From positions 1 to 29,044 of IMG/VR virus record IMGVR_UViG_3300021963_006692: a stretch of 29,044 nucleotides of DNA; one strand, 5' to 3'. Under the pieces are notes generated by a model. The model did no database searches, had not been told where the DNA came from, and saw only the letters and a list, made by a program, of their open reading frames with translations. The DNA is from a virus. The position numbers and the translations under genes were made by a program. Shown here piece after piece: positions 6,128 through 26,103 of the stretch. The number at the start of each line of letters is the position of its first letter. The stretch's first letter is position 1.

Positions 6128-8851
6128 ATGAGTAGGTTATCAGGACAAACAAGTGTTGCAACAAACGCAGACATTTTAATGAATTCACCCTTTGACACAA
6201 GGTCGTGGACTCCTTATTATTCTGGGTTAACTGACGGTACAATACCACAACCATATAAAGGAATGTTAGTTTCGGTATATGATGATAACGATTCAAATAA
6301 GAATGGTCTTTATTTTTGTACAGATATTGGGGGCCCCGGCGTTGTAACTACTAGTTCCACTATTTGGGAAAAATTGGGGTCGGGAGCCGGAACATTGACA
6401 GGAGGAACAATATCTACCGATAATAAAATATCAGGTGGAACAATTAGTGGATATACAATATATTTTGGTCAAGTAAATGCTTCAACAGGTGGTACATATT
6501 CTAATGGCACTATAAGTTTATCAGGTACTGGGTCTTTAGGTACTATAACAGGTTTTGAAGTACTATCGGGTACAGGTGTTGATGTTAGTTATGTTAATGC
6601 AAATAATAATTATGGTCTTAAAATTGATGCAACAAATCAAATAATATCATTTAGATTAAATAACGGAACAACATTATCGGCATCTACCGGCTCACTTAAA
6701 GATTATTATGTTACGGCAGGAACTTATAATAATACATCCGGGATAATTACATTTTATAACACTTCAGGAAGTTCATTTCCTGTTTCAGGATTTACAACAG
6801 GAAATAACAATTACTACACAACAGGCTCAACGTATAACCCAACTAATGGTGTAATAACATTTAATAGAACTGATTTACAACCGGCATATTCCGCAACAGG
6901 ATTTAATTATGTTACCGGATTTACTGTAAGTAGTAACAGAATAAGTGGTTATACGAATATTAGTGGAGCTTCAGTTGTTTATGGTGGAACAATAAATGCA
7001 GTAACTGGAGGTAGTTTCTCAAATAACATATTATACTTATCAGGAACAGGTAGTATATTATCAGGAGTATCCATCACAGGGTTTAGTACGACTTTAGGGG
7101 AATATCTTCCACTAAGTGGAGGAACCGTAACAGGAGGTACAAGATTCCAAAGTGGATTAACTGCAAATACAATATCGGCAACAACTTACTTTAATCTTCC
7201 AATCAGTGGGTTGACTAACGGAACAGGTATCGGTATAAGTGGTTCAAATGGTAATTACACAATCTCATATACCGGCTCAACAGGTATTTCAGGAAACTAC
7301 CTACCTATAAGTGGAGGGACCCTAACAGGAGGTACAATATTCCAAAGCGGATTGACGGCAAACACAATTTCTGCGACAACTTATTATAATTTACCTGTTA
7401 GTGGTTTAACTAACGGAACAAGTATTGGTATAAGTGGTTTAAATGGTAATTACAGAATTTCATACACGGGTAACACAATAACTGGAGGTACTTTAAATTT
7501 AACAGGTGGCAGTATTAATTTTTCAGGGACATCATCAGGGTTTACTGTGACAGGATTTACTTATGTAACAGGTTTTACTGTTAATTCAAATAATACAATT
7601 AGTGGTTATACAAATATTAGTGGAGCGTCAGTTGCTTATGGTGGAACAATAAATGCAGTAACAGGTGCTACGTATAACGCAACAGGTAGAACATTATCTT
7701 TGTCAGGTACTGGAAGTTTATCCTCAGGTGTTACAGTTTCAGGACAATTTGATTATTATGGTTTAAAGGAATTATACCTAAACCCAACTAATTTTTTATT
7801 AAGTGCAACTACTTTTGGGGGGGTAGTTGTTACCGCAAACACAACTCCATTAAGTGTTGATAATTATGTAACTGGTGGAACTTACAACATATCAGCAGGT
7901 ACAATAACATTTCGTTCAGTATCAGGAACACCGTTCCCTGTTTCAGGATTTACAACCGGATTAACTACAACTACTGGAGCAACTTACTATCCAAGTCAAG
8001 GTACTATTGAATTTACTAAAACAGGTACGGCACCCGCATACTCAGCAATTGGATTTAATTATATTACAGGAATAACTGTAAGTAGTTCTACTAACGCTAT
8101 AAGTGGTTATACAAATATCAGTGGAACGACCGCGGCGTTTGGAGGTATTTTAACTGCAGTAACAGGAGGTACTTATACGGGAGGAACACTATATTTGTCA
8201 GGTACAGGATTAATTTCAACAGGAATTACAATATCAGGATTTAACAATAATCAATCAAACGCAGTATTAAGTGGTGGTGTTAATAATTATTTGGCAAAAT
8301 GGACAGGGTCAACCGCATTAACTGTAAGTCAAATATATGATAATGGTACAAATGTTGGAATAGGATTATCGGGAGTAACAAATAAACTACACATATCCGC
8401 ATCAACAAATCCTATAAGAATAGAGGGTATTCAACAGTCGGCTCAAACTCAAACTACATCTAAATTTTTAATGATTGATGATAGTGGTACCGTATTTTGG
8501 AATAATGTTACCCCAACTACAGGTATTTCAATATATCTTTCAGCAAGAACTAATAGTGGGCAAGTTGATTTTATACCTACAGGAACATCTGCAAATTACA
8601 GAAGTGTTAATTATAATTACCAACTAAGAAGAACTGCAAACCAAACAATAAGAAGCGGTACATTACAAGCGGTTTGGAGTAGCGGAGCGACTGGCGGAGT
8701 TAATTACACTGATATGGGACCATTACAATTTTTAGAAGTCGGTGATTCTATAAATTATATAGCAGTTTCAGGAGTTACAGGAGGAATCACTGTAGATATT
8801 AGTGTTTCTAATGGTAATTGGGAATTTAAAGCTTATAAAGTTTTATTATAA
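6128..8851 (+). CDS. Large repetitive tail-fibre protein
   Basis: 907 residues, dominated by G/T/S/N repeats typical of trimeric beta-structured phage fibres. Residues 1-90 form a non-repetitive head (KGMLVSVYDD, residues ~44-53) shared with the upstream protein. The shaft has at least three kinds of module: a VTGFTVSSN...ISGYTNISGA module in three copies (from 6911, 7565 and 8063), a YVTxGTYNxSxGxITF...PVSGFTTG module in two copies, and a 65-residue tandem repeat (7103 and 7298). The C-terminal region begins NYLAKWTGSTALTVSQIYDNG and NVGIGLSG, a pattern common in Bacteroidota fibre proteins, followed by a globular end. Its stop overlaps the next ATG (TAATG, 8849-8853). Probably the long fibre shaft of this virion. 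Confidence 0.75.
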   Translation: MSRLSGQTSVATNADILMNSPFDTRSWTPYYSGLTDGTIPQPYKGMLVSVYDDNDSNKNGLYFCTDIGGPGVVTTSSTIWEKLGSGAGTLTGGTISTDNKISGGTISGYTIYFGQVNASTGGTYSNGTISLSGTGSLGTITGFEVLSGTGVDVSYVNANNNYGLKIDATNQIISFRLNNGTTLSASTGSLKDYYVTAGTYNNTSGIITFYNTSGSSFPVSGFTTGNNNYYTTGSTYNPTNGVITFNRTDLQPAYSATGFNYVTGFTVSSNRISGYTNISGASVVYGGTINAVTGGSFSNNILYLSGTGSILSGVSITGFSTTLGEYLPLSGGTVTGGTRFQSGLTANTISATTYFNLPISGLTNGTGIGISGSNGNYTISYTGSTGISGNYLPISGGTLTGGTIFQSGLTANTISATTYYNLPVSGLTNGTSIGISGLNGNYRISYTGNTITGGTLNLTGGSINFSGTSSGFTVTGFTYVTGFTVNSNNTISGYTNISGASVAYGGTINAVTGATYNATGRTLSLSGTGSLSSGVTVSGQFDYYGLKELYLNPTNFLLSATTFGGVVVTANTTPLSVDNYVTGGTYNISAGTITFRSVSGTPFPVSGFTTGLTTTTGATYYPSQGTIEFTKTGTAPAYSAIGFNYITGITVSSSTNAISGYTNISGTTAAFGGILTAVTGGTYTGGTLYLSGTGLISTGITISGFNNNQSNAVLSGGVNNYLAKWTGSTALTVSQIYDNGTNVGIGLSGVTNKLHISASTNPIRIEGIQQSAQTQTTSKFLMIDDSGTVFWNNVTPTTGISIYLSARTNSGQVDFIPTGTSANYRSVNYNYQLRRTANQTIRSGTLQAVWSSGATGGVNYTDMGPLQFLEVGDSINYIAVSGVTGGITVDISVSNGNWEFKAYKVLL
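6911..8240 (+). repeat. Dispersed in-gene fibre repeat, three copies
   Basis: Copies near 6911-7083, 7565-7743 and 8063-8240 encode versions of VTGFTVSSN...ISGYTNISGA...GGTINAVTGG...LSGTG...SG. A weaker fourth copy precedes them around 6451-6570 (ISGYTIYFG...STGGTY...LSGTGSLG). Protein similarity is higher than nucleotide similarity, so the duplication is old. Confidence 0.7.
7103..7471 (+). repeat. Tandem 195-bp (65-residue) repeat in the fibre gene
   Basis: First unit 7103-7297 (YLPLSGGTVTGGTRFQSGLT...) and second unit from 7298 (YLPISGGTLTGGTIFQSGLT...). About four of five residues match between the units. Confidence 0.75.
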
Positions 8852-10356
8852 TGGGTAATACTAATGGAACAATTTCATATCAGTCAATTTATGTTAATTC
8901 AGGTACTACAGCAAGTATAATATCTGCAACAACAATAAGTGCAAATACTTTTTATGGGGGAAGTTTATCTGCGTCTTTTATTGGTAACGGTGATGTAAAT
9001 GACCAAGAATTTATTTATATTAGTGGTATCACATCCGATACTCAAACTCAAATAAACCAAAAAGTATCAGTCAATACAAATTTTTTAACATATACCGAAT
9101 CTCAAAATTTAATACCATTAAGTAAAAAATTAGAAGGTATTAATATTGAATTAAATGAAACTCAAAATGAAATTGAAGTTTCTTTACCTTTTAATCAAAC
9201 TTTATTTAAACAATATTTTATTTCAGTTTCATCTGTGTTATCTTCAACTGCAGTAACTAATTTTAATTTATCAACATTATTTAATGATTCAAATAGAGCC
9301 GTACAAATTGTTATAACACAAGGTAACGCAGTTATCTCAGGTATTAGTGGAGGTACTGACGGTAGTATTTTAATGATTACAAATACAGGTACTGGATTAA
9401 TAATTTTAGAAAATGAAAGTACTAAATGTACACCAAACAATTCGATTAAATTTAAATTTACTTTTGGAGAAGCTTTTTTCTTAACATATAGAAAAACTAT
9501 ATTTTTAATTTATAATTCATCTGAACAATGTTGGAAAAACATAAATTTTGGGGCATCAAATAATCAATATGATTATGTTAATGATTTTAATGATTTATTT
9601 GATTATTCTACTGCAAATACCGATTCAGGACAATATAATGGTTTAATCCCACACATTGGAATGCAATCAAATATAGGTACTGCGAGTACTATTAATAATG
9701 TTGTTAGAACAAATTTTTTAGACTCAAATCATGTTTTAAAAATTTCTTTACCTCAAAATACTGCATCAACTTCATCTTATTATGTTTGTCTACATAAAGC
9801 AAACAGAGCAGATAATTACTTTGAATCTTTAGGTGCTACAAATATTTTTGGGGTGTCCGAATTTAATTTATATAAATTTTCTTTAACATCAACAACTTTT
9901 AATAGTGATTATTGTTTTACTTTTGGATTTACAATTGCATCATCTGGAAACCGATTAAAATTAAATGCGTCAGTAAGTTCTTGGGGGTTTAGAACCCCAA
10001 TAAGTACAGACACTTTACCATTGTATTTCCAAACAGGAACTGTTACACAGTCTGACACATCCCCATTGTATGAATTATCATTTGGAAGTACTTCCGCTAC
10101 AAGTTTATTATTATCAAGTTGTATTAATAGTTGGTGTTATGCCGGGATTTATTCCTCAACAATTACAACACAAAATTCAAATTTAATTTTTATTACATCA
10201 ATTAATGGTAATGAATATACTATTGATAGGGTAGAGGGGACCTCGTCTGGTAATCAACTTGCGCCATTCTCAATTCTTCGTTCTAAATTTGGGTCGACAA
10301 ACACTAATTCAATTTTTATAGATACTTACAATCAAATAGATTCAGGAACTTTTTAA
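8851..10356 (+). CDS. Tail-fibre paralogue 1 (receptor-binding candidate)
   Basis: 501 residues, first of three tandem paralogues. N-terminal anchor: ISATTISANTFYGGSLSASF (from ~residue 24) followed by YISGITSDTQTQINQKV, the repeat-like motif of fibre shafts. Middle module about residues 145-230: VVI-type strands, GISGGTDGSILMI, LIILENEST and a C(W)-type end (CWKNINFG), matched in the two following proteins. The C-terminal ~260 residues are specific to this paralogue and beta-rich. No catalytic motif. The ATG shares its A with the previous stop (TAATG), so it is coupled. Conserved anchor plus divergent tip is typical of receptor-binding fibres; the receptor is unknown. Confidence 0.6.
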   Translation: MGNTNGTISYQSIYVNSGTTASIISATTISANTFYGGSLSASFIGNGDVNDQEFIYISGITSDTQTQINQKVSVNTNFLTYTESQNLIPLSKKLEGINIELNETQNEIEVSLPFNQTLFKQYFISVSSVLSSTAVTNFNLSTLFNDSNRAVQIVITQGNAVISGISGGTDGSILMITNTGTGLIILENESTKCTPNNSIKFKFTFGEAFFLTYRKTIFLIYNSSEQCWKNINFGASNNQYDYVNDFNDLFDYSTANTDSGQYNGLIPHIGMQSNIGTASTINNVVRTNFLDSNHVLKISLPQNTASTSSYYVCLHKANRADNYFESLGATNIFGVSEFNLYKFSLTSTTFNSDYCFTFGFTIASSGNRLKLNASVSSWGFRTPISTDTLPLYFQTGTVTQSDTSPLYELSFGSTSATSLLLSSCINSWCYAGIYSSTITTQNSNLIFITSINGNEYTIDRVEGTSSGNQLAPFSILRSKFGSTNTNSIFIDTYNQIDSGTF

Positions 10357-10357
10357 T

Positions 10358-11884
10358 ATGAGTGATTTAAAAATTTATAATAATTTAAATGTAGAAAATA
10401 ATTTAGTATTTTCTTTATTATCGGCAAATACAATTTCGGCGTCGACCTTTTACGGTTCTTTAAATGCTCAGTATTTGGCATCTGGTATCACTAATACAAA
10501 ATTTTCCTATAATAATTCATTAACTGACTATATACAACCACAATTAAATAATAAGGCACTAAGTGGTGAACCATTTTTAATTTATAGTACTAATGTTTTT
10601 GGTAATCAAAAAATATTAACAGGAGGGACTGACATAATAATTAACACCGGGTATACGGCATTTCAAGTATCTTTTAACAACAGTGGTTTTAGCTCAATAA
10701 ATGTTTCATCATTAATTGATAATATTAATATAAATTATCCATTTACAATCAATAATTATTCTCCAGTAGGATTTAATAGTTCAATTGTTAATATAAATTT
10801 AAATCCTAATTCAGTTATAAAAATAACAGGTATATCTGGAGTAACATCAGGTAGAAATTTAATATTACAAAATTTAAGTGATTATTTAATAATATTAGAA
10901 AATCTTGGAACCGCGAGTACGAGTAGTCATCAGTTTTATTTTACAAATAAAACAAGTTATTTTTTAAAACCAAATTCTCAAATACAAATAGTGTATAATT
11001 CAGCAATTAATAAATGGACTGACACTATAAATAATAATGGTTTAATAAATTATGATTATTTTAGATTATCCGATACATTTGATGGATTATGGTTCCCAAA
11101 TGCTTCAGTTGTACCAGGGGGGTCACTAAGAACTACATTTCCAAAAAATGGAGATATATTTTCAATTGAGTCTAATCCAAATAATTTAGTAACTAATCAA
11201 ACCGCATTTTATTCTTCCGAAAATGGATTAAGAGTATTCAGAGGTATTGGGCCAACTGTAGGTACAAGATATGGTAGAATTAGTGTTGGATACGCAAATT
11301 CAGATATTGATTTACAAACTAGTTCGGCCAATTCGTTAACAATTGTATCTAAATTTTCAGTACTTAAACCATTGGCACCTTTTTTAAGTAACTCTGATAA
11401 TTGGGTTATAAGTTTTGGTACTAATAATAATTTATTATCTTCAGATTATCCCACATTAACAAATAGTAATACTAACTTTCCTAATTTTGGTGGAGGGTCA
11501 TTTTGGTTATTTGATTGGAAATCAAATCAAAATTATGCTAGATACGCAATACAGTCAACAGGTAATACATATACTGTAAGTGCGTCATCTTTTAATTTAT
11601 CTGATATACAATCAGAACAACCTAAAATTTTTGGAATTTATTATAAACCATTAAGGAGTTCTGTAAATTCAATTTCTACATTTTTTTGGGCAAATATTTC
11701 AGGGGAATCAGAAAACTATACTATTGAACAACCTTTAAGTGGCTCACAAATTTCAAACGAAACTATTAAAGGAGTACCATCTTTAATATTTTACGGTAAC
11801 TCAGATTATACCCCTGAAAGTAATATTAATAATAACGCTAAAGTGCAAATAAATTATTTGGTTATAGATAAAGATAAATTATAA
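10358..11884 (+). CDS. Tail-fibre paralogue 2 (receptor-binding candidate)
   Basis: 508 residues. It repeats the plan of the preceding gene: ISASTFYGSLNAQYLASGIT anchor (about residues 29-48), TKFSYNNSLTDYIQPQLNNK, then a middle module with LNPNSVIKITGISGV, LIILENLG, YFLKPNSQIQIVYNS and NKW. The C-terminal domain has PNFGGGSFWLFDWKS (about 370-384), which matches PNFSGGVFFIGVSG in paralogue 3, so these two share a distal fold, perhaps a lectin-like jelly roll (inference). One base separates the upstream stop from its ATG, and the next ATG follows its stop directly. Structural fibre protein. Confidence 0.6.
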   Translation: MSDLKIYNNLNVENNLVFSLLSANTISASTFYGSLNAQYLASGITNTKFSYNNSLTDYIQPQLNNKALSGEPFLIYSTNVFGNQKILTGGTDIIINTGYTAFQVSFNNSGFSSINVSSLIDNININYPFTINNYSPVGFNSSIVNINLNPNSVIKITGISGVTSGRNLILQNLSDYLIILENLGTASTSSHQFYFTNKTSYFLKPNSQIQIVYNSAINKWTDTINNNGLINYDYFRLSDTFDGLWFPNASVVPGGSLRTTFPKNGDIFSIESNPNNLVTNQTAFYSSENGLRVFRGIGPTVGTRYGRISVGYANSDIDLQTSSANSLTIVSKFSVLKPLAPFLSNSDNWVISFGTNNNLLSSDYPTLTNSNTNFPNFGGGSFWLFDWKSNQNYARYAIQSTGNTYTVSASSFNLSDIQSEQPKIFGIYYKPLRSSVNSISTFFWANISGESENYTIEQPLSGSQISNETIKGVPSLIFYGNSDYTPESNINNNAKVQINYLVIDKDKL

Positions 11885-13366
11885 ATGGAATCTAAAAAAA
11901 TATATGGTGGTTTATCAGGTTTTACATTTTCAGTGTATTCCGATTTTGTAAATTCAACTTTTGCAAGTGGAACAACTTTATATGGTCAAATAAACGCTCA
12001 ATATATCGGGACTGGACTAACCACTCCAAATAACGTCACAAACACCGAAGTTTCATATTTAACAGGATTAACAGGTAATGTACAATTACAAATTGATTTT
12101 AAAGCGGATAAAACACAAACATACATTACACATGATGTTAGTAATAATTTAACTAATTATAAAAAAATAGTTCCGGGTATTAATGTGACATCAAGTACGG
12201 TAGGGAATTATGTGAGTTTTTCATATAATCCCATTATTGAAGAATATAATGTGTCAATTATTGAGGATTCCCCATCTTCCGATGATAATATAATAACAAA
12301 TTATAATCCAACAAACTGGGACGGAACATTACCAAATAAAGCAACCGAAATAAGATTAAACCCAACAAATTTAATTGTTATACAAAATTTATTGGGAAAT
12401 ACAAATGGTAGAATATGTAGATTGAGAAATATAAGTAGATATCCGATAATATTACAAAACAATGTAACTTCAAATGGGGGATTTTTATTTAGAAATAGTT
12501 GTGATTATATTTTAAGACCTAACAAATCTATTATGTTTACTTGTATAAGTTTAAATTGGGTTGAGTTTGGGGATATAAAATATTATGGATTTGATTATAT
12601 TGATACATTTAAAAGTGTTTTTTCTGATTATACAACGGTAACACCTGCACCAAATTTCTTTTTTCCAAAAAAATCTAGCCATTTCATTTTTTCCGCTCAT
12701 ACATCGTTAGTTAGTACACGAACTTACGCATGTTATTACCAAAATAACATTAGGTTACTCAATGTAAGATTTGGGGCTCCTGTATCAGGACCAAATTTAA
12801 AGTTTTATACTTTAGGACAATTTAATAGAAAAAATATACTGAACGACTCAGGTCATACTGTAGTCATGCAAACAAAACTAGTTCAACCTGTTATAGGTAC
12901 TCTTTCTGGAATCGGAATGCCAGTTGTTGTCAACGGGTTTACAAACTTTGATTTGAGTTATGGATATCAAACATCTACAAACAATTATTCAACAAGATTA
13001 CCTAATTTTAGTGGAGGTGTATTTTTCATTGGGGTTTCAGGATATAACTATTCAGCAGTGACTCAGTATAATGACAATACAAGTACTGTTTTTGACACAG
13101 GATTTAATTATTTAAGTTCCTTAACTTTAGGTGTTTGTGTACTAACAAAATCAGGGAATAGTAATTTAGAATCAATTTTTTATATTAAAAATAATGCAAC
13201 ATCAACATATACAGTTTTTGATAAACAAACATTTAATAGCGAAATTTTAAATTCTTACCCAAATCTATCAATTTTTTCTAATAATTTAACTACAACGGAA
13301 TCTACAAACGCTACTAGTGCAAGTGGTTATATCCCATTAAAATATATTGCAATATCTAAAGATTAA
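11885..13366 (+). CDS. Tail-fibre paralogue 3 (receptor-binding candidate)
   Basis: 493 residues, last of the fibre operon. Anchor: FASGTTLYGQINAQYIGTGL (about residues 26-45), then NTEVSYLTGLTGNVQLQIDFK, the classic fibre N-terminal motif. Middle module: IRLNPTNLIVIQNLLGNTNG, PIILQNN, YILRPNKSIMFTC and LNWVEFG, aligning with paralogues 1 and 2. Distal part: LPNFSGGVFFIGVSGYN and a tail ending PLKYIAISKD, comparable with VQINYLVIDKD in paralogue 2. The three genes are in one direction with gaps of 0-1 base, which points to tandem duplication followed by strong divergence of the tips. Confidence 0.6.
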   Translation: MESKKIYGGLSGFTFSVYSDFVNSTFASGTTLYGQINAQYIGTGLTTPNNVTNTEVSYLTGLTGNVQLQIDFKADKTQTYITHDVSNNLTNYKKIVPGINVTSSTVGNYVSFSYNPIIEEYNVSIIEDSPSSDDNIITNYNPTNWDGTLPNKATEIRLNPTNLIVIQNLLGNTNGRICRLRNISRYPIILQNNVTSNGGFLFRNSCDYILRPNKSIMFTCISLNWVEFGDIKYYGFDYIDTFKSVFSDYTTVTPAPNFFFPKKSSHFIFSAHTSLVSTRTYACYYQNNIRLLNVRFGAPVSGPNLKFYTLGQFNRKNILNDSGHTVVMQTKLVQPVIGTLSGIGMPVVVNGFTNFDLSYGYQTSTNNYSTRLPNFSGGVFFIGVSGYNYSAVTQYNDNTSTVFDTGFNYLSSLTLGVCVLTKSGNSNLESIFYIKNNATSTYTVFDKQTFNSEILNSYPNLSIFSNNLTTTESTNATSASGYIPLKYIAISKD

Positions 13367-16574: not shown

Positions 16575-17696
16575 TTATATAACGTAAATATTTCTTTGGA
16601 AAGCTCTTGTTTTCATTTGTTTTTGAAGATTTTCAGCCATTAGAGCCTCTCTTTCCAATATTTTTTCAGGTCTTAATCTTGTCAGTTTACCTTCAGCCCC
16701 TGTTAGTTCTTCAACTAATTTTAACTTTTCATCTTTACCTTCAGTACTTAAAGTTTGCCATTCTAATGTTAATTCAGAATCAGGAGTTTTTAAACTGCCA
16801 CTGTACTTACCTCTAACTTTAGATAATGTTTCTTTAACTGACGCAATAAAATATTTTCTAACCCAGTTTTGAGCGGGTGAATTTAAGTCTACCCAAGAAA
16901 GTGTTTCTAAAGGTACATCAGATGGTAATTTTATAATATCGGGGTTCGCTTTTAAACAACTCGCTCTATCTTTTCCTTCAGTATCATAATACCAATACCA
17001 AACTTTACCATTCATTAAATCTGCGTTTCCAAAATCAAATTTACCTCCAGGTGTTTGCATAAGATGAATTGCCTTTTTACCATCAGGTAACGCAGTAATC
17101 CTGTAAGTTTTATCTCCGGCAATTATTCTTCTTTGTATGTTAATTTCTTGCATTCTTAACATCATATCAAATGCTGGCATCATGAAGTATGAACCTGAAT
17201 ATCCCATTTGGGAATATCCCGCAGGGCCACCAAAACCTCCCCCTCCTAATCCCCCAAAACTCCAAGGGTCGAATAAAATGTTATTTTGAGATGGAGGTGT
17301 AAACCACAATAATTCATTAACTTCTCTATTTGCTGGAATCTCATAAATTTGTCTGTGCCTTTCAAGTTGGATATAGTCTTTTTTTAAAACCCAATCTCCT
17401 CCAGCTTGTAGACCAACTATTTTAGAATATGCATGAGTATATCTGTCCTCATAATCAAAACTTCTAGTTACAAATGCTCTTGCTAATGAACTAGTATCCA
17501 TGTTAAGGTTATATAAAGATGTCCATTGAGAATCGATTAACCAATCGTGAACAAACTGAGAATAGTCATTAATTGAAAACTCCAATAGAGTATCCATCTG
17601 TTCGTCTTCAATTTCTATCGAACGAAGAGGTGCTCCTAAAATGTGTCTTACTTTAGTGTATAGTTGACTTCTATATGGTTCTTCAATTATTGTCAT
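16575..17696 (-). CDS. Neck protein, T4 gp13-like
   Basis: 373 residues (T4 gp13 is 309). It begins EEPYRSQLYTKVRHILGAPL and IEIEDEQMDTLLEFSINDYS, the helical N-terminus seen in gp13-type neck/head-completion proteins of T4-related phages. The C-terminal half has SPAQNWVRKYFIASVKETLS, VRGKYSGSLKTPDSELTLEW and LSTEGKDEKLKLVEEL, again typical. Such proteins join the DNA-filled head to the tail. A Gly-rich loop (FGGLGGGGFGGPAG, about 147-160) interrupts the middle and accounts for part of the extra length. A TATTTAT box lies five bases upstream of its ATG. It is followed by the small 104-residue gene. gp14- and gp15-like genes lie nearby on the other strand, which supports the call. Confidence 0.75.
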   Translation of the reverse strand: MTIIEEPYRSQLYTKVRHILGAPLRSIEIEDEQMDTLLEFSINDYSQFVHDWLIDSQWTSLYNLNMDTSSLARAFVTRSFDYEDRYTHAYSKIVGLQAGGDWVLKKDYIQLERHRQIYEIPANREVNELLWFTPPSQNNILFDPWSFGGLGGGGFGGPAGYSQMGYSGSYFMMPAFDMMLRMQEINIQRRIIAGDKTYRITALPDGKKAIHLMQTPGGKFDFGNADLMNGKVWYWYYDTEGKDRASCLKANPDIIKLPSDVPLETLSWVDLNSPAQNWVRKYFIASVKETLSKVRGKYSGSLKTPDSELTLEWQTLSTEGKDEKLKLVEELTGAEGKLTRLRPEKILEREALMAENLQKQMKTRAFQRNIYVI

Positions 17697-17708: not shown

Positions 17709-18419
17709 TTACTCAGTTTTTTTAGTGTACGTTGTGTACAGTTCATCAACAAATTTCCAATTAATTGCGTCCCAAAAGTTTTCAATATAACTGTCTTTTT
17801 TGTTTTGATATTTTAAATAAAATGCGTGTTCCCACAAGTCTAATCCAAGTATAGGGTATCCACCTTTATCGTATATATTCATTAATGGGTTTTCTTGGTT
17901 TTGGGTTGACATAACTTTCAGTCTACCACTTTTAGTAACCACTAACCAAACCCAACCTGAACCAAATCTATTTTTAGCGACTTTTTCAAATCTTTTTTTA
18001 AATTCTGCGTAAGTACCAAAATATTTTTTAATTTCTTTGAGAACTATTCCGTATGGTTTTTGTGGTGTTGGAGATAACATCTTCCAAAATAGAGCGTGGT
18101 TAAATGCTCCACCCGCATTATTTTTTATAGTTGTATTATATTTTGATATTTGTTTGACAATCTCAATTAGTTCAACATCTCCATAATCTTTTTTTCTTAA
18201 CGCTGAATTTAACTTTTTAACATACCCCTTATAATGTTTTTGATAATGAAACTTCATAGTTTCAGGGTCAATAAATCTTCTTATAGATGAATAAGAATAT
18301 GGTAATTTATCAATACCAATAGTTCTCATTTCATTAATGAAAAATTTAGGACCAAATTCAGGATTACCTAAGTTGATTTTTTTCTCTAAAGATTCAGTTA
18401 TTATGTTGAGATATTTCAT
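17709..18419 (-). CDS. Fe/Mn superoxide dismutase with CTS-like N-terminus
   Basis: 236 residues from the ATG at 18419; an in-frame TTG at 18425 would add two residues but falls inside the TATTTAT box. It converts superoxide to O2 and H2O2. Metal ligands are all present: H58 (MKFHYQKHY), H108 (AGGAFNHALFW), D194 and H198 (GLDLWEHAFYLKY). The second-shell Tyr is Y66 (KGY), and STQNQENPLM (171-180) puts Gln175 where manganese SODs carry theirs, so a Mn or cambialistic enzyme is likelier than a strict Fe one. FGSGWVWLV and NFWDAINWKFV are also standard. Residues 1-37 are an extra N-terminal extension; MKYLNIITES resembles the capsid-targeting start of T4 internal proteins (MKTYQEFIAEA), with ITE|S fitting the I/L-x-E cleavage rule. 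It sits between neck and helicase genes with phage-like composition, so it is not host contamination. Confidence 0.93.
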   Translation of the reverse strand: MKYLNIITESLEKKINLGNPEFGPKFFINEMRTIGIDKLPYSYSSIRRFIDPETMKFHYQKHYKGYVKKLNSALRKKDYGDVELIEIVKQISKYNTTIKNNAGGAFNHALFWKMLSPTPQKPYGIVLKEIKKYFGTYAEFKKRFEKVAKNRFGSGWVWLVVTKSGRLKVMSTQNQENPLMNIYDKGGYPILGLDLWEHAFYLKYQNKKDSYIENFWDAINWKFVDELYTTYTKKTE

Positions 18420-18424
18420 CAACA

Positions 18425-18431
18425 ATAAATA
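18425..18431 (-). promoter_or_regulatory. TATTTAT box upstream of superoxide dismutase
   Basis: TATTTAT on the minus strand, five bases before the ATG at 18419, inside the 13-base gap after the helicase stop. The position supports the ATG over the upstream TTG. Confidence 0.5.
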
Positions 18432-18432
18432 C

Positions 18433-20175
18433 TTACTTATTGTTAATTTCGTTTAATATCTGTTCGACAATATCCCCTGTATTTTCAGAATCTCCCATTA
18501 CAGTTTCAATTATTTGTTTTTTCTTTGTTAAGATATCGTAAATAACACCTTCAATTGTGTTATCAAACAATGGGTAGAATATTGATACATTATTTTTTTG
18601 ACCGTATCTATAGGCCCTATCTTCGGCCTGTGAATGGTCTGAGGGTACAAAAGATAAGTCATTCATAATAACGGCTTCTGCCTCAGTCAAAGTTAATCCA
18701 ACACCAGCGGCTTTAATATTACCACAGAAAACTCTGATTTTATCGTTTGTTTGGAATTTGTCTACAGCGTCTTGTCTTGCGGGTTTAGAAGTTGACCCAT
18801 CTAAATAAACAGAAGATTTACCAAAATGTTCATGAATCTTTTTAATCGGTTCTGTAAAATTACTAAAAATAATTACTTTTTTACCTTGTTCAATAATGTT
18901 CTCAGCAATTTCAATAGTGTGTTCTATTTTTTCTTCAGCAATTACTTGTCTGACTTTAGTTAATTTTGAAAATTGAATTGTTAAAGATTTTGATTCTTCA
19001 ATTCTATTATTGTACCAATCATAGTATTCTCCCATTAATCCCTCATATAATCGAGACTTCAATCTCAAATAAACAGGTGTTATTATTTTATCAGGTAAAT
19101 CTAATACTTCAGTTTTTAATCTCCTTAAAATTTGTCTAGAAGTTCTATCCCTTAATTCTTCTAAATTTGATGCTCCTGTTACATTCCAAACTTTTTTACT
19201 ACCGACTCTGAATTGATAACCATTACAGTACCTAATCGCATACGCCATCCAATTTTGACTAACAGGACTATCAATTAATTTTAACAAATTATAATAGTTC
19301 ATAGGTCTAGAGGTCATCGGGGTTCCTGTTAATAACCATAACTTTTTAACCTGTTTACAAATATCCATTATAATTTTAGTCCTTTGTGCTTGTGGATTTG
19401 AAACATAATGTGCTTCATCAATGATTATTAAATCAAACTTAGATTTAACCAACAATGAATTTTCATTATCCTTAGGGTCATGGAAATTTTTTAAAATATC
19501 ATAGTTTGATATTATATAATCTGAATCTTCAAATTTTTTACCTTCACATATGTATATTGACCTATCAGTATAATTTCTAATTTCTCTTTCCCAATTTAAT
19601 TTTAAAGATGCGGGACATATAATAAGAATTTTTTTAGCACCACTTTCTAAAGAAGCAATTATGGTTGAGGTAGTTTTACCTAAACCCATATCGTCGGCTA
19701 AAATAAATTTATCATTTTTTAATAGTCTTTCTATTGCCTCTTTTTGATGAGATAATGGGGGTCGGTTATCGTATTTTGAATAATCTACGTTAACTTCATT
19801 TTCTTTATGTTCCTTAATTATTGCGGCTTTCGGTATCCAAAAATCGTGAATAGTATCCCCACTAAAAATCTTACCCCATATATGATACGCTTTATCCTTC
19901 TCAACTAATAATTTCTCAATATAAATTTTGTCAGGTTCTTTAATGAATGGATTGTCTTCAACAAGTTTTGTGGAAAAATAAGAATCGACTGGAACCCATT
20001 TTTTTGCAACTTTTGGAGTTACCTCATGATAATTTATAACATAATCACATTGAGCTCTTGTAGGTATGTTTTTTTTAGACACCTCAATTTGCTTCTTAAT
20101 TTTAAGAATGTAATTATTGGAACCATTATAAGATTCTAAAATTTCGATTGCTTGTTGTTCAATACTTATTGCCAT
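18433..20175 (-). CDS. SNF2-family (SMARCAL1-like) DNA helicase/translocase
   Basis: 580 residues, two RecA-like lobes of superfamily 2. Q/P-rich region PPLSHQKEAIERLL (139-152), Walker A with DDMGLGKT (161-168), DEAH (253-256), motif III LLTGTPMTSRP (281-291), motif IV region KVIIFSNF (433-440), motif V AAGVGLTLT (489-497) and motif VI QAEDRAYRYGQ (516-526). The DDMGLGKT plus QAEDRAYRYGQ pair is diagnostic of SNF2/Rad54-type translocases, the closest well-known architecture being SMARCAL1-like fork-remodelling enzymes. In T4 the UvsW helicase does fork reversal and branch migration; this enzyme may play that part here (inference). The 130 residues before the motor are not recognised. It is divergent from the gp14-like gene and precedes the SOD by 13 bases. 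Confidence 0.88.
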   Translation of the reverse strand: MAISIEQQAIEILESYNGSNNYILKIKKQIEVSKKNIPTRAQCDYVINYHEVTPKVAKKWVPVDSYFSTKLVEDNPFIKEPDKIYIEKLLVEKDKAYHIWGKIFSGDTIHDFWIPKAAIIKEHKENEVNVDYSKYDNRPPLSHQKEAIERLLKNDKFILADDMGLGKTTSTIIASLESGAKKILIICPASLKLNWEREIRNYTDRSIYICEGKKFEDSDYIISNYDILKNFHDPKDNENSLLVKSKFDLIIIDEAHYVSNPQAQRTKIIMDICKQVKKLWLLTGTPMTSRPMNYYNLLKLIDSPVSQNWMAYAIRYCNGYQFRVGSKKVWNVTGASNLEELRDRTSRQILRRLKTEVLDLPDKIITPVYLRLKSRLYEGLMGEYYDWYNNRIEESKSLTIQFSKLTKVRQVIAEEKIEHTIEIAENIIEQGKKVIIFSNFTEPIKKIHEHFGKSSVYLDGSTSKPARQDAVDKFQTNDKIRVFCGNIKAAGVGLTLTEAEAVIMNDLSFVPSDHSQAEDRAYRYGQKNNVSIFYPLFDNTIEGVIYDILTKKKQIIETVMGDSENTGDIVEQILNEINNK

Positions 20176-22054: not shown

Positions 22055-25000
22055 ATGGCAGAATCTAATAAAGTTTTCGTATCTCCAGGTGTTTATACAT
22101 CGGAAAGAGACTTGTCGTTTGTAGCTCAAAGTGTGGGGGTTACAACATTAGGTATTGTTGGTGAAACCTTAAAAGGGCCAGCATTTGAACCTATCTTTAT
22201 TACAAGTTATGATGAGTTTTCAACCTATTTTGGTGGAACTTCAGCTGAAAAATTTGTAAATACACAAATTCCTAAATATGAATCGGCGTACATTGCTAAG
22301 TCATACTTACAACAATCAAATCAATTATTTGTAACAAGAGTACTTGGTTTATCAGGGTATGATGCAGGTCCTTCATGGTCAATTAAAACAATCGCAAATC
22401 CTGATGTTACAACTATGGGATTAAACGGTACCGGAACGGCATATTCCGTAGCGTTCTCAGGAAATACTGGTGGAACATATAATTATGTTGGTTCATTCCC
22501 ATCAATAATTGAATCTAACAGAACTGCAACATATACAACATTTGCTGGAGGGTCATCTACAATCCAAGAATCATTAAATACTTTAATTACAACTTTTCTT
22601 GGTAATGTATCAACATCTGCAAACACAATTTATTATTTTGGGCCTGTTTCAGGTTATAGTACATTATCGTCTACATATACTGCGGACACTAATGTATTTG
22701 GTGTGGATACCGAATCAACTGCGACAATAGACTATGCTTCAGGTACAAATGATGCTTGGTTCTATTCTAACTGGTCTCCAACAGCAGGAAATGCTTACAC
22801 AGGATATTCTTTCTATAGTGTGATTACAAATACAAGCGGAGGGACTGCAGGAACTTACACAGGTACTGTATCAGGAAAATACTATCAATTTAGTGGTACT
22901 GCTTATGTAGACTATAACAATTTAGTAATTGCAACTTTACGTTCAAGAGGTATTTCAACATACAGTAGTACTAATGGACCAACTTATCAAGTTTCAGGAG
23001 TGAATAACGTATCATTAATTACGACAGGTTCTTATTCAGGTGTAAGTGAAAATCCATATCTAACATTTAAAGTTAGTGGTTCAACAATTGAAAATACAAA
23101 CTTTGAATTTGAAACATCTTTAGATGATAATGATACAAGTTATATGAATAAAGTTTTTGGAAGAACTAACTTCGCAAAAGACAGAACTACAGTTCCATTA
23201 TTTGTTGAGGAAATTTATCCAACTATGTTGTCATACGGTTACAATCAAGGATATATCAGAGGTATCAGTTCTAATTTAGTTAGTTTAAACAGTGCTAGAA
23301 GTGCGGCTTCAACGTCAATTGGTAACTATACTGAAAGATATCAAACCCCAGTTACTCCTTATTTAGTTTCTGAGTTAAGAGGTAATAAAGTTTATCAGTT
23401 ATTTAGATTTGTTTCAATATCTGACGGTAATGATGCTAACACAGAAATTAAAGTATCTGTCGCTAACATGTCATTTAATAACTTAACATTTGATGTTATA
23501 GTTAGAGATTTTTATGACACAGATGCTAACCCTGTAGTATTAGAGAAATTTACGAACTGTACAATGGACCCTAATGAAAATAGTTTTGTTGGTAAGAAAA
23601 TTGGTTCTTCTGACGGGGAGTACGCAATAAATTCTAAATTTATAATGGTTGAGGTTAATCCTGAAGCTCCAACAACGGCAATTCCTTGTGGATTTGAGGG
23701 TTATAACACAAGACAATACTCAACTTACCCAACAAATTTACCTCCATTCCCAATTTTAAAAACTAAATACGATTTTCCTGGTGAAGTTATCAGTAATCCT
23801 CCATTTGGTTCTACTTCAGGGGATGATGCTGTTACATCAGCAGGTGATAATGTAAGAAGAACTTATTTAGGTTTCTCTACTAAAGTTGGTGTTGATACTG
23901 ATTTCTTACAATATAAAGGTAAGATAAATCCTTCAAATCTTTGTACGGTAACTGAATACGACCAATGGGGAGTAAGAACTCAAGGTTTCCACATGGATAG
24001 TGGAGCAACTGTAATTACTATCGGAACTTCATTTACAACTTCAGGTGACCCAGCGTTTGATTGTGGTGTTGCATCATTCCAATCAGAACCAACAACTGAA
24101 TCAAATCCTTACTACAGATTATATTCTCGTAAGTTCACACTTGTATTCCAAGGAGGTTTTGATGGATGGGACATCTATAGAGAAAATAGAACAAACCAAG
24201 ATAGATTTGCATTGGGTGGTTCAGGATTTTTGGCAGGAGCTTGTTCTTCTACAAGATACCCAACCGCATCAGGTAAACTATTTAAATCAATAACTGTAGG
24301 TGACAACTCAACTGATTGGGCTAATACTGACTACTACGCATACTTATTGGGTATTAGTACTTTCTCAAACCCTGAAGCGGTTAACATTAACTTGTTTGTT
24401 ACACCTGGCGTTGATTATACTAATAATAGTGGTGTTGTAGAATACGCGATTGATATGGTTGAGAATGACAGAGCGGATTCATTGTATATTACAACAACTC
24501 CTGACTTTAATTTATATCAACCATCAACAGATATCAGTAATTTAATTTACCCACAAGAAGCGGTTGATAACTTGGAAACTACAGGATTAGATTCTAACTA
24601 TACTGCAACTTACTACCCTTGGGTATTAACAAGAGATACTGTAAATAACACTCAGATTTATTTACCAGCAACCGCTGAGGTAACAAGAAACTTAGCATTA
24701 ACCGACAACATTGCATTCCCTTGGTTCGCAGCAGCTGGTTATACAAGAGGTATTGTAAATGCGGTTAAAGCTCGTAAAAAGTTAACTCAAGAAGATAGAG
24801 ATACTCTTTATAAAGGAAGAATTAATCCAATCGCTACTTTCAATGATGTTGGAACTGTAATTTGGGGTAACAAAACTTTACAAGTAAGAGAATCAGCTTT
24901 AGATAGAATTAACGTAAGAAGATTGTTATTACAAGCACGTAAATTGATTTCAGCGGTAGCTGTAAGGTTATTGTTTGAACAAAATGACGATATTGTTAGA

Positions 25001-25213
25001 CAACAATTCTTGGATTCAGTTAACCCAATCTTAGATGCAATCAGAAGAGACAGAGGTCTTTATGATTTTAGAGTTGTTGTTCAAAACACTCCTGAAGATT
25101 TGGATAGAAACCAAATGGTAGGTAAGATTTATATCAAACCAACTAAGGCTCTTGAATTCATAGATATTGAGTTCTTAATCACTCCATCAGGAGCGTCTTT
25201 TGAAAATATCTAA
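22055..25213 (+). CDS. Contractile tail sheath protein, T4 gp18-like, enlarged
   Basis: 1052 residues; T4 gp18 has 659. It forms the contractile outer tail. The N-terminus (FVSPGVYTSERDLSFVAQSV, then TLGIVGETLKGPAFEP and YIAKSYLQQSNQLFVTRVLG, residues 1-100) is typical sheath. So is the C-terminal third: FPWFAAAGYTRGIVNAV, LYKGRINPIATFNDVGTVIW, INVRRLLLQARKLISAVAVR, NDDIVRQQFLDSVNPIL and the closing IDIEFLITPSG. Between them, residues about 105-370 are G/S/T/Y-rich with little resemblance to gp18 and probably make a surface-exposed extra domain. Codons here are more regular, with more C-ending ones, than in the fibre genes, as expected for an abundant protein. It has its own promoter box upstream and a strong terminator downstream, so it is a single-gene unit. 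Confidence 0.92.
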   Translation: MAESNKVFVSPGVYTSERDLSFVAQSVGVTTLGIVGETLKGPAFEPIFITSYDEFSTYFGGTSAEKFVNTQIPKYESAYIAKSYLQQSNQLFVTRVLGLSGYDAGPSWSIKTIANPDVTTMGLNGTGTAYSVAFSGNTGGTYNYVGSFPSIIESNRTATYTTFAGGSSTIQESLNTLITTFLGNVSTSANTIYYFGPVSGYSTLSSTYTADTNVFGVDTESTATIDYASGTNDAWFYSNWSPTAGNAYTGYSFYSVITNTSGGTAGTYTGTVSGKYYQFSGTAYVDYNNLVIATLRSRGISTYSSTNGPTYQVSGVNNVSLITTGSYSGVSENPYLTFKVSGSTIENTNFEFETSLDDNDTSYMNKVFGRTNFAKDRTTVPLFVEEIYPTMLSYGYNQGYIRGISSNLVSLNSARSAASTSIGNYTERYQTPVTPYLVSELRGNKVYQLFRFVSISDGNDANTEIKVSVANMSFNNLTFDVIVRDFYDTDANPVVLEKFTNCTMDPNENSFVGKKIGSSDGEYAINSKFIMVEVNPEAPTTAIPCGFEGYNTRQYSTYPTNLPPFPILKTKYDFPGEVISNPPFGSTSGDDAVTSAGDNVRRTYLGFSTKVGVDTDFLQYKGKINPSNLCTVTEYDQWGVRTQGFHMDSGATVITIGTSFTTSGDPAFDCGVASFQSEPTTESNPYYRLYSRKFTLVFQGGFDGWDIYRENRTNQDRFALGGSGFLAGACSSTRYPTASGKLFKSITVGDNSTDWANTDYYAYLLGISTFSNPEAVNINLFVTPGVDYTNNSGVVEYAIDMVENDRADSLYITTTPDFNLYQPSTDISNLIYPQEAVDNLETTGLDSNYTATYYPWVLTRDTVNNTQIYLPATAEVTRNLALTDNIAFPWFAAAGYTRGIVNAVKARKKLTQEDRDTLYKGRINPIATFNDVGTVIWGNKTLQVRESALDRINVRRLLLQARKLISAVAVRLLFEQNDDIVRQQFLDSVNPILDAIRRDRGLYDFRVVVQNTPEDLDRNQMVGKIYIKPTKALEFIDIEFLITPSGASFENI

Positions 25214-25278: not shown

Positions 25279-26103
25279 ATGAAATTGTATATCGTCGAAA
25301 AAATGGATGAAAAAAATACACCCGATATGGATTATTGGGCGTTTGATTGGGATGATAATATTATGATTATGCCAACTAAAATTGTTCTTAAAGACTCCAA
25401 CGGTAAGGAGATTGGAATGTCAACTGAAGATTGGGCAGAATATAAAGATATTGTTGGAAAAGAAGATTTTGAATATGAAGGTCATACTATTGTAGGTTTG
25501 GCAAATAACCCTTTTAGATATTTTAGTACTGAACATGATAAAATGTTTACAATAGATGCTATGTTAGGTAAGTTAGGTCCTGCTTGGGATGACTTTAAAA
25601 ACGCTATAAATGGAGGTTCTATTTTTGCAATCATTACCGCTAGAGGACATTCTCCGTTAAAGATAAGAAGTACCATAGAAAAAATGATTGACGGTAATTT
25701 CAGGGGTATTTCTAAAAGAGAACTTGTTAAAAATTTAAGAAAGTATAGAAATATTGCTGGTGAAGAAGATATGCCCGATGATGAGTTAATTGACGCTTAC
25801 ATGGATATGAATAGATATTATCCTGTAACTTTTGAAAAGGGAAGTGCCCAATCTCCGGCAGAATTAAAAAATGAAAAATTAAGAGAGTTTGAGGAGTATG
25901 TGAAATATATTGCTAATATTGTTCATAAACCTGCACACTTTAAAAATATGGTTTCAAATAAATTTGCACCAGTGATACATTTTTCAGATGACGATGAAAC
26001 TAATTTAGAATATTCATATAAAAGAAACAAAGACAGACCAGATAACATTATTAATTATGTTACTACCAAAGGAGGAGTTAAAAAACCTTATGAATTAAAA
26101 TAA
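25279..26103 (+). CDS. HAD-superfamily phosphatase-like protein
   Basis: 274 residues. HAD motif I is AFDWDDNIMIM with nucleophile D23 and acid D25; motif II is FAIITARGHSP with T120; motif IV is IHFSDDDETN with D237-D239; motif III lysine is not certain (K198 or K200 in ELKNEKLREF). These place it among Mg-dependent HAD phosphohydrolases. A long helical insert lies between motifs II and IV (about 125-225), perhaps a cap. The substrate is not recognisable; nucleotide, polynucleotide 3'-end or sugar phosphate are all open. It is a separate unit, with a terminator before it and its own promoter box, inserted between the sheath and tube genes, which adjoin in T4. That makes it an accessory gene (moron-like) in the tail cluster. 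Confidence 0.7.
   Translation: MKLYIVEKMDEKNTPDMDYWAFDWDDNIMIMPTKIVLKDSNGKEIGMSTEDWAEYKDIVGKEDFEYEGHTIVGLANNPFRYFSTEHDKMFTIDAMLGKLGPAWDDFKNAINGGSIFAIITARGHSPLKIRSTIEKMIDGNFRGISKRELVKNLRKYRNIAGEEDMPDDELIDAYMDMNRYYPVTFEKGSAQSPAELKNEKLREFEEYVKYIANIVHKPAHFKNMVSNKFAPVIHFSDDDETNLEYSYKRNKDRPDNIINYVTTKGGVKKPYELK

Follow-up and report, generated by a model that had tools for sequence, protein, structure and literature searches.

A phage superoxide dismutase with a gp21-type propeptide-like extension, a candidate prohead-packaged cargo enzyme

A viral DNA stretch of 29,044 bases (an IMG/VR record whose ends coincide with those of the stretch analysed, hereafter the window) encodes an Fe/Mn superoxide dismutase (SOD) with an N-terminal extension that, by inference from sequence, appears to behave like a propeptide of the gp21 type. 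We propose, with a probability of about 0.65, that this SOD is a prohead-packaged, protease-trimmed cargo enzyme whose likeliest final cut would fall at E30|M31. The extension, its conserved sites of the cleavage type, the protease and capsid genes of relatives and the tag-like starts of unrelated proteins can be read from sequence; we infer that the SOD is docked, cut, carried in the virion and injected, and that the phage benefits. The head of a T4-like jumbo phage would carry SOD as a cargo enzyme; a 30-residue N-terminal module would dock the SOD precursor into the prohead core, and, as the head matures, a gp21-type S77 protease would cut at (I/L)xE sites and remove the module, the last cut being at E30|M31, leaving a SOD of ordinary length. 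The enzyme would then remain in the head, exit with the DNA and be able to act against superoxide in a newly infected cell ahead of phage gene expression. In phage T4, gp21 is described as cutting after L/I-X-E and the first ten residues of IPIII as sufficient for targeting and packaging (PMC9026906), and internal proteins with such propeptides are described as being ejected (PMC9026906, PMC9391042, PMC3012670).

The SOD gene and its N-terminal extension

The SOD gene (17709..18419, minus strand) encodes 236 residues in which Pfam recognises, both above cut-off, Sod_Fe_N at residues 36-116 (74.3 bits) and Sod_Fe_C at residues 125-226 (128.9 bits); Pfam and structure alignments place the SOD fold at about residues 36-229 (17733..18314, minus strand). 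H58, H108, D194 and H198, which we take to be the four metal ligands (His, His, Asp, His), are unchanged across 24 aligned SODs (22 from phages and two cellular), and by its domains and ligand-type residues the product is an Fe/Mn SOD. The upstream neighbour (18433..20175, minus strand) encodes a SNF2-family DNA helicase by Pfam/PHROG-level annotation, and the downstream neighbour (16575..17696, minus strand) encodes a neck protein of the head-tail adaptor Ad2 family (phrog_211, E=7.6e-8); tail sheath, tube and baseplate genes also lie near the SOD gene.

The extension, which we propose to be a propeptide or capsid-targeting module, comprises residues 1-30 (18330..18419, minus strand) and has no counterpart in solved SODs such as 5n56_A. 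The open reading frame, its coordinates and its N-terminus, with MKYLNIITES as residues 1-10 of the SOD (18390-18419, minus strand), were as the initial annotation had given them; that annotation was also right about the existence of an extension, for which it had estimated some 37 residues and alignment to solved SODs gives a length of about 31. In SODs solved without a leader or tag, query residue 36 pairs with chain residue 4-5 (e.g., in 5n56_A), and in the model of a relative with a fused second domain, SOD chain residue 3-4 falls on model residue 33 in most alignment rows; because the structure alignments enter at chain residue 3-5, an ordinary SOD would begin near residue 31. The two structure models, of the window SOD and of the fused relative, have mean pLDDT values of 69.2 and 72.9, respectively, with the extension mostly below 50, and both were used for fold placement only.

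Cleavage-type sites before and after the SOD fold

A scan of viral contigs yielded at least 593 SOD relatives, of which the best 80 were retained, and all counts are from these. From the 80 loci, 78 SODs were read, one of them identical to the window SOD; the loci L048 and L051 stand outside the counts and, by eye, both carry ISE and FINE|A. That homologous phage SODs might share the extension, a point raised in the initial annotation, is borne out in this set (the best 80 of at least 593 relatives), as F(I/L)xE immediately precedes the native SOD start in 78/78 SODs and a further (I/L)xE lies within residues 2-20 in 78/78; the 78 represent 37 distinct extensions, and both sites are found in all 37. 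In the window SOD, the site at the native start is I28-N29-E30|M31 (18327..18338, minus strand), which conservation and structure alignment mark as the likeliest final cleavage point. Across 22 aligned phage SODs, the extension is variable at most positions, but F27 and E30 never change and only I or L is found at residue 28; residue 31 (P1') is Met in 17 and Ala in five.

The N-proximal site of the window SOD, I7-T8-E9|S10 (18390..18401, minus strand), was read from the sequence and obeys the L/I-x-E rule, as had been noted at the outset. An E9-type first site occurs in 14 of the 22 aligned phage SODs, with E13 in seven and E18 in one. The earlier proposal of E9|S10 as the exact cut was demoted, since I/L-x-E9 is present in only 36/78 relatives, V replaces I/L in 21/78, and the site lies at residue 13 in more distant clades; the cut most likely falls at E30|M31 rather than at E9|S10. 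Starts of the form M..[IL]xE are found in 40/242 called genes of T4 (16.5%), 62/249 of the related genome G001 (24.9%) and 4/21 of the window, and the same pattern follows 8.9% and 10.7% of internal methionines in T4 and G001, respectively. The pattern is enriched at gene starts in the relatives, for example in G001 (62/249 vs. 118/1098 internal Met, p=2.5e-8), and in the window alone the enrichment is not significant (4/21 vs. 9/123, p=0.099). As such starts are common by chance, the I7-T8-E9 motif alone is little proof.

The initial annotation had also aligned MKYLNIITES with the T4 capsid-targeting sequence. Against a profile of 15 tags from non-SOD proteins of relatives, MKYLNIITES scores 9.6, a value reached by 4/3806 internal-M decamers; the T4 decamer MKTYQEFIAE scores -7.7, which is reached by 2019/3806 and corresponds to background, and the idea of homology between the two was dropped. 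SOD starts of some relatives (e.g., MKHIENKIKL) also score like background on this profile, and the first ten residues are therefore not a conserved SOD-family signature.

With regard to sites beyond the extension, 51/78 relatives have a second domain joined to the C-terminus of the SOD, which spans about 250-285 residues in complete copies, and 50 of the 51 linkers after the SOD carry at least one (I/L)xE within the 45 residues checked, most commonly LNE|S followed by LYE|N or ISE|G. Site density was determined for 15 fused relatives chosen from the 51, with region borders set by eye. The extension holds 38 (I/L)xE sites in 494 residues (7.7 per 100) and the interdomain linker 29 in 492, compared with 22 in 2925 residues of the SOD fold (0.75 per 100) and 39 in 3825 residues of the C-terminal domain, such that extension and linker carry the sites at roughly six to ten times the density of the folded domains. 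Composition-matched shuffles lead to an expectation of 16.2 sites for the extension and 10.0 for the linker, and the observed counts were matched in 0/5000; the folded domains are at chance (22 vs. 26.3 for SOD and 39 vs. 42.1 for the C-terminal domain). With eight representatives below 75% identity, 19 vs. 8.7 sites were found in the extension and 15 vs. 5.3 in the linker (0/5000 shuffles), although, because the sequences counted are related, the shuffles overstate independence. Sites that are dense in extension and linker form the pattern expected of trimming at domain boundaries by a protease that follows the gp21 rule. Taken over its full length, the extension provides strong evidence for this reading, whereas its first ten residues by themselves provide little.

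The C-terminal domain itself, in L024:10001-11503 and 50 other relatives, contains an E...D...D...QxK arrangement, which by eye suggests a PD-(D/E)XK nuclease. Pfam assigned no family above cut-off to the C-terminal domains scanned, with one match to DUF7244 below it (E=0.0015); a PDB sequence search with the domain gave no match better than E=0.23, and SODs filled all matches listed in fold searches with the 501-residue fused model. A stand-alone tagged protein of a second related genome, G005, resembles the domain at 25% identity over 218 columns (E=3e-7 in a single comparison).

An extension that serves as a docking or localisation module and is never cut, tethering the SOD, with (I/L)xE as part of amphipathic docking helices, appears unlikely, although several observations are compatible with it. 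A helix is predicted, at low confidence, at residues 2-16 of the window SOD, and in the fused relative helices are predicted, also at low confidence, at residues 2-16 and 22-33, the second spanning E30; the tags on many small proteins of the relatives resemble amphipathic helices that are capped by LTES-type motifs, and the support for cleavage consists of a sequence pattern. Against an uncut module, FINE30|M31 is kept while its flanks change and coincides with the native SOD start, and the same kind of site recurs in linkers after the SOD, where N-terminal docking would not need it.

Head-maturation genes, SODs of other phages and known packaged proteins

The reading of the SOD as trimmed cargo presupposes a gp21-like protease, which the initial annotation had named as a gene to look for. 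An S77 protease (PF03420) was found above cut-off in 6/10 large SOD-bearing records, and Gp23 capsid in the same six; neither an S77 protease nor a capsid gene was seen in the 29,044-base window. No S77 was found in the other 4/10 large relatives (95-140 kb) or in any of eight additional virus records of 12-78 kb, which include a PA5oct-like one; all of these may be fragments. In four related genomes (G001, G003, G005 and G010), the first 90 residues of the capsid protein contain five (I/L)xE, and the fifth, LINE60|(A/S), is at the position that SFLTE65|A occupies in T4. INE is common to this site and to FINE30 of the SOD; P1' differs, being Ala or Ser in the capsid site vs. Met (17/22) or Ala (5/22) in the SOD.

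A SOD that is part of the virion but is retained there, or that resides in the neck or tail and protects the packaged DNA or the particle from oxidants, is improbable in our assessment; the SOD gene does adjoin the neck gene, in G001 as well as in the window, but the sites match head-core maturation and T4 internal proteins with such propeptides are described as ejected (PMC9026906, PMC9391042). Quite improbable is an ordinary intracellular auxiliary enzyme whose extension is a lineage quirk or whose true start is M31, for, although phage SODs without such an extension exist (Vibrio phage 2.275.O and the phage-labelled record MW462191, where the SOD starts MAFELPALPY) and residue 31 is Met in 17/22, Ala31 in 5/22 provides no start codon, the (I/L)xE sites are kept while the remainder of the extension changes, and codon positions 1/2/3 of the extension differ 150/48/456 times among 90 close pairs of relatives. 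Because of these codon-position differences, the extension is, as judged from its sequence, translated and under coding selection, and on the strength of these differences and of Ala31 an internal start at M31 was rejected. Vibrio phage 2.275.O (L141) has an S77 protease, yet its annotated SOD is without such an N-terminal extension; the C-terminus of this SOD reads MLDE|SVNIRHLINFISK, an (I/L)xE-type site. The initial annotation had held that the same extension in non-phage homologues would speak against packaging; it is absent from both cellular SODs, the only two cellular homologues in the genome scan (n=2). One cellular homologue, without extension, starts MQHEFPDLPY, and the SOD of L130, a Verrucomicrobiia MAG, has a secretion-type, twin-arginine-like leader, MMTRRQAIKTTALVATAAAVV (MMTRRQAIKTT...), before the fold, without (I/L)xE sites.

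Pseudomonas phage PA5oct, a distant and independent lineage that encodes an S77 protease and Gp23, offers the closest hint from experiment. Its SOD-like protein EST35_0261 (Sod_Fe_C above cut-off, Sod_Fe_N just below) starts MNDSIKKYISIAE|AASSVKKIPIPY, i.e., ...ISIAE|AASS...IPIPY, with IAE|A before the fold; the sole relative of this protein found (L148, 43% identical) reads ...DLLE|AKEK...KLPY, i.e., ...LLE|AKEKGTLEQIKLPY. EST35_0261 is like the window SOD in its Fe/Mn SOD domain and in having (I/L)xE just before the fold, with S77 and Gp23 encoded by PA5oct as by relatives of the window phage, and is unlike it in its shorter leader, an identity of about 26% and its annotation as a hypothetical protein. 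A GenBank note on EST35_0261 gives ESI-MS/MS, and it is one of 93 CDS so flagged (count by reading); the PA5oct paper is said to report 93 virion-associated proteins. For Pseudomonas phage KTN4, ESI-MS/MS is described as having been used for virion-associated gene products (PMC4908380). The flag in PA5oct is suggestive and not proof, and its SOD may be a contaminant, because the flagged CDS also include non-structural enzymes (ribonucleotide reductase, thymidylate synthase, FtsH, DNA ligase and ClpP).

Packaging of the SOD would follow the same logic as that of the T4 internal proteins, and what is new is the different tags and the unexpected cargo. The likeness to T4 IPI, IPII, IPIII and Alt lies in a putative propeptide ending in (I/L)xE, in the S77 and Gp23 genes of the relatives and in a short tag shared by unrelated proteins of these relatives; unlike in T4, the tag sequences differ, the extension has 30 residues and two sites, and the proposed cargo is a housekeeping-type metalloenzyme that in many cases forms the N-terminal half of a precursor with two domains. 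The giant phages phiKZ and SPN3US represent a different phage lineage. Many of their head proteins are described as cut after Glu by a gp21-related protease, and, unlike here, no SOD cargo is seen among their inner-body and ejection proteins as far as these are treated in the available text of PMC9026906.

Among viruses of algae, chlorovirus PBCV-1 also encodes a SOD (a245r), although that enzyme is of the Cu/Zn type and the window SOD of the Fe/Mn type. To our knowledge, a T4-type propeptide would not be expected on the PBCV-1 enzyme. The a245r gene is described as late and its product as packaged in the virion, and infected cells are reported to have less superoxide than those infected with virus lacking the SOD gene (PMC7019647); for the window SOD, packaging is a prediction from sequence. 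If that prediction is right, an antioxidant enzyme would join the proteins injected by phages, which in T4 include factors that counter restriction or take over the host, and phages would have a counterpart to the SOD that PBCV-1 packages. A search of open-licence papers, often of top matches only, found neither a phage-packaged SOD nor such a tag family, and no virion proteomics for the window phage or its close relatives was found.

Tags on unrelated proteins and a TATTTAT box

Genes of the relatives were called with a simple home-made caller that uses ATG starts only. The expectation that other genes might begin with MKxY...(I/L)xE-type sequences held in that similar tags occur on many proteins of the relatives' genomes; in G001, G003, G005 and G010 (L088-L128), the tag families MKKxxRLTESDL, MKYLITES and MRNLLTEVSKMKxIMGL(T)E are found on unrelated proteins, and many of the tagged proteins lie toward contig ends. 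A tight version of the tag was found at gene starts vs. internal methionines in 17/249 vs. 0/1098 (G001), 18/354 vs. 0/1363 (G003), 9/192 vs. 3/875 (G005) and 2/84 vs. 0/457 (G010) cases, and at no gene start in T4 (0/242), Flavobacterium phage immuto (0/210) or half of crAss001 (0/45); because the pattern was chosen after inspection of the list, p-values for it are descriptive. A search of phage sequences with the tag peptide, a short query, gave no match.

The loose N-terminal rule is less selective. In T4, its 40 matches among 242 called N-termini include 7/10 gp21 substrates listed for comparison, and with seven substrates among 40 matches its precision is under a fifth. In PA5oct, the loose rule matches MS-flagged proteins no more often than the remaining ones (14/93 vs. 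33/210, p=0.62) and was discarded as a predictor of virion proteins; a stricter N-terminal rule is marginal (6/93 vs. 4/210, p=0.05), and the tight tag is present in 1/93 flagged and 0/210 other proteins (1/303). A set of 55 loosely tagged proteins of at least 120 residues, none crossing the end of a stretch, fell into 37 unrelated groups in BLAST comparisons with the first 34 residues removed; this set includes three or four SOD-related proteins and surely some chance matches (e.g., a start MKIAFGMIVFE). Pfam identified PPK2, SOD and DUF6576 in three proteins each, and phage lysozyme, a glycosyltransferase, a nucleotidyltransferase, an L5 gp82-type protein, DUF4240 and GYF_2 in one each.

In G001, L099:7412-9196 encodes a tagged polyphosphate kinase 2 (PPK2) fused to a phage lysozyme. 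INE359|Q lies just beyond the PPK2 domain of this fusion, close to the point at which the PPK2 proteins without a fusion partner end in G003 and G005. Whether this phage group runs a general modular loading system, in which gp21-site tags would mark dozens of unrelated proteins, some cargo would be made as polyproteins cut at domain boundaries (SOD with a nuclease-like domain, polyphosphate kinase with lysozyme) and the toolkit would be injected, is in our view a question with even odds; if so, the particle would inject a metabolic and attack toolkit alongside its DNA. Few of the proteins that giant phages inject have been recognised, since cargo proteins have no homology in common, and, should the tag-and-cut logic hold, cargo would become readable from sequence in hundreds of uncultured phage genomes.

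A TATTTAT box (18425..18431, minus strand) lies 5 nt before the SOD start codon and, by motif count, is a putative, possibly late, promoter element. The heptamer occurs within 60 nt upstream of 69/249 G001 genes vs. 0.020 expected per gene, and is found mostly 0-20 nt before the start codon, in 26-29% of the genes of G001, G003, G005 and G010 vs. about 2% expected. It precedes 8/21 window genes, including those for SOD, neck, sheath and tube, and was not found upstream of the window gene for a 931-residue protein or of the helicase gene. Loosely tagged genes have it more often than other genes in G001 (31/62 vs. 38/187, p=1.2e-5), G003 (36/79 vs. 59/275, p=3.3e-5) and G005 (18/40 vs. 38/152, p=0.013). 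TATTTAT is likely a phage promoter element, and its closeness to start codons would perhaps give nearly leaderless messages. An inverted repeat, AACAATAA/TTATTGTT, at window positions 18421-18444 covers both the stop of the helicase gene and the region around the SOD start.

Immuto (L131-L134), which has S77, carries leaders of the form FDLKKFLVENKLT.NS..L.E on four proteins and MKKQILSEQF.RMQ.LAGIITE|S on two; no virion proteomics of this phage was seen among the matches listed. In the window, a second protein with an N-terminal (I/L)xE, MKLYIVE7|K (25279..26103, plus strand; HAD-like by eye), is encoded between tail sheath and tail tube with a TATTTAT box upstream, and its relatives start MKIFLVE|E, MKLIIVE|G or MKRRIKE|G, with the site at residue 7 or nearby. 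The adjacent tail sheath gene (22055-25213) encodes 1052 residues, roughly double the 496 positions of the PHROG profile that it matches, and three adjacent open reading frames at 8851-13366 (501, 508 and 493 residues) have N-terminal segments that are alike and perhaps encode paralogous tail-fibre-type proteins.
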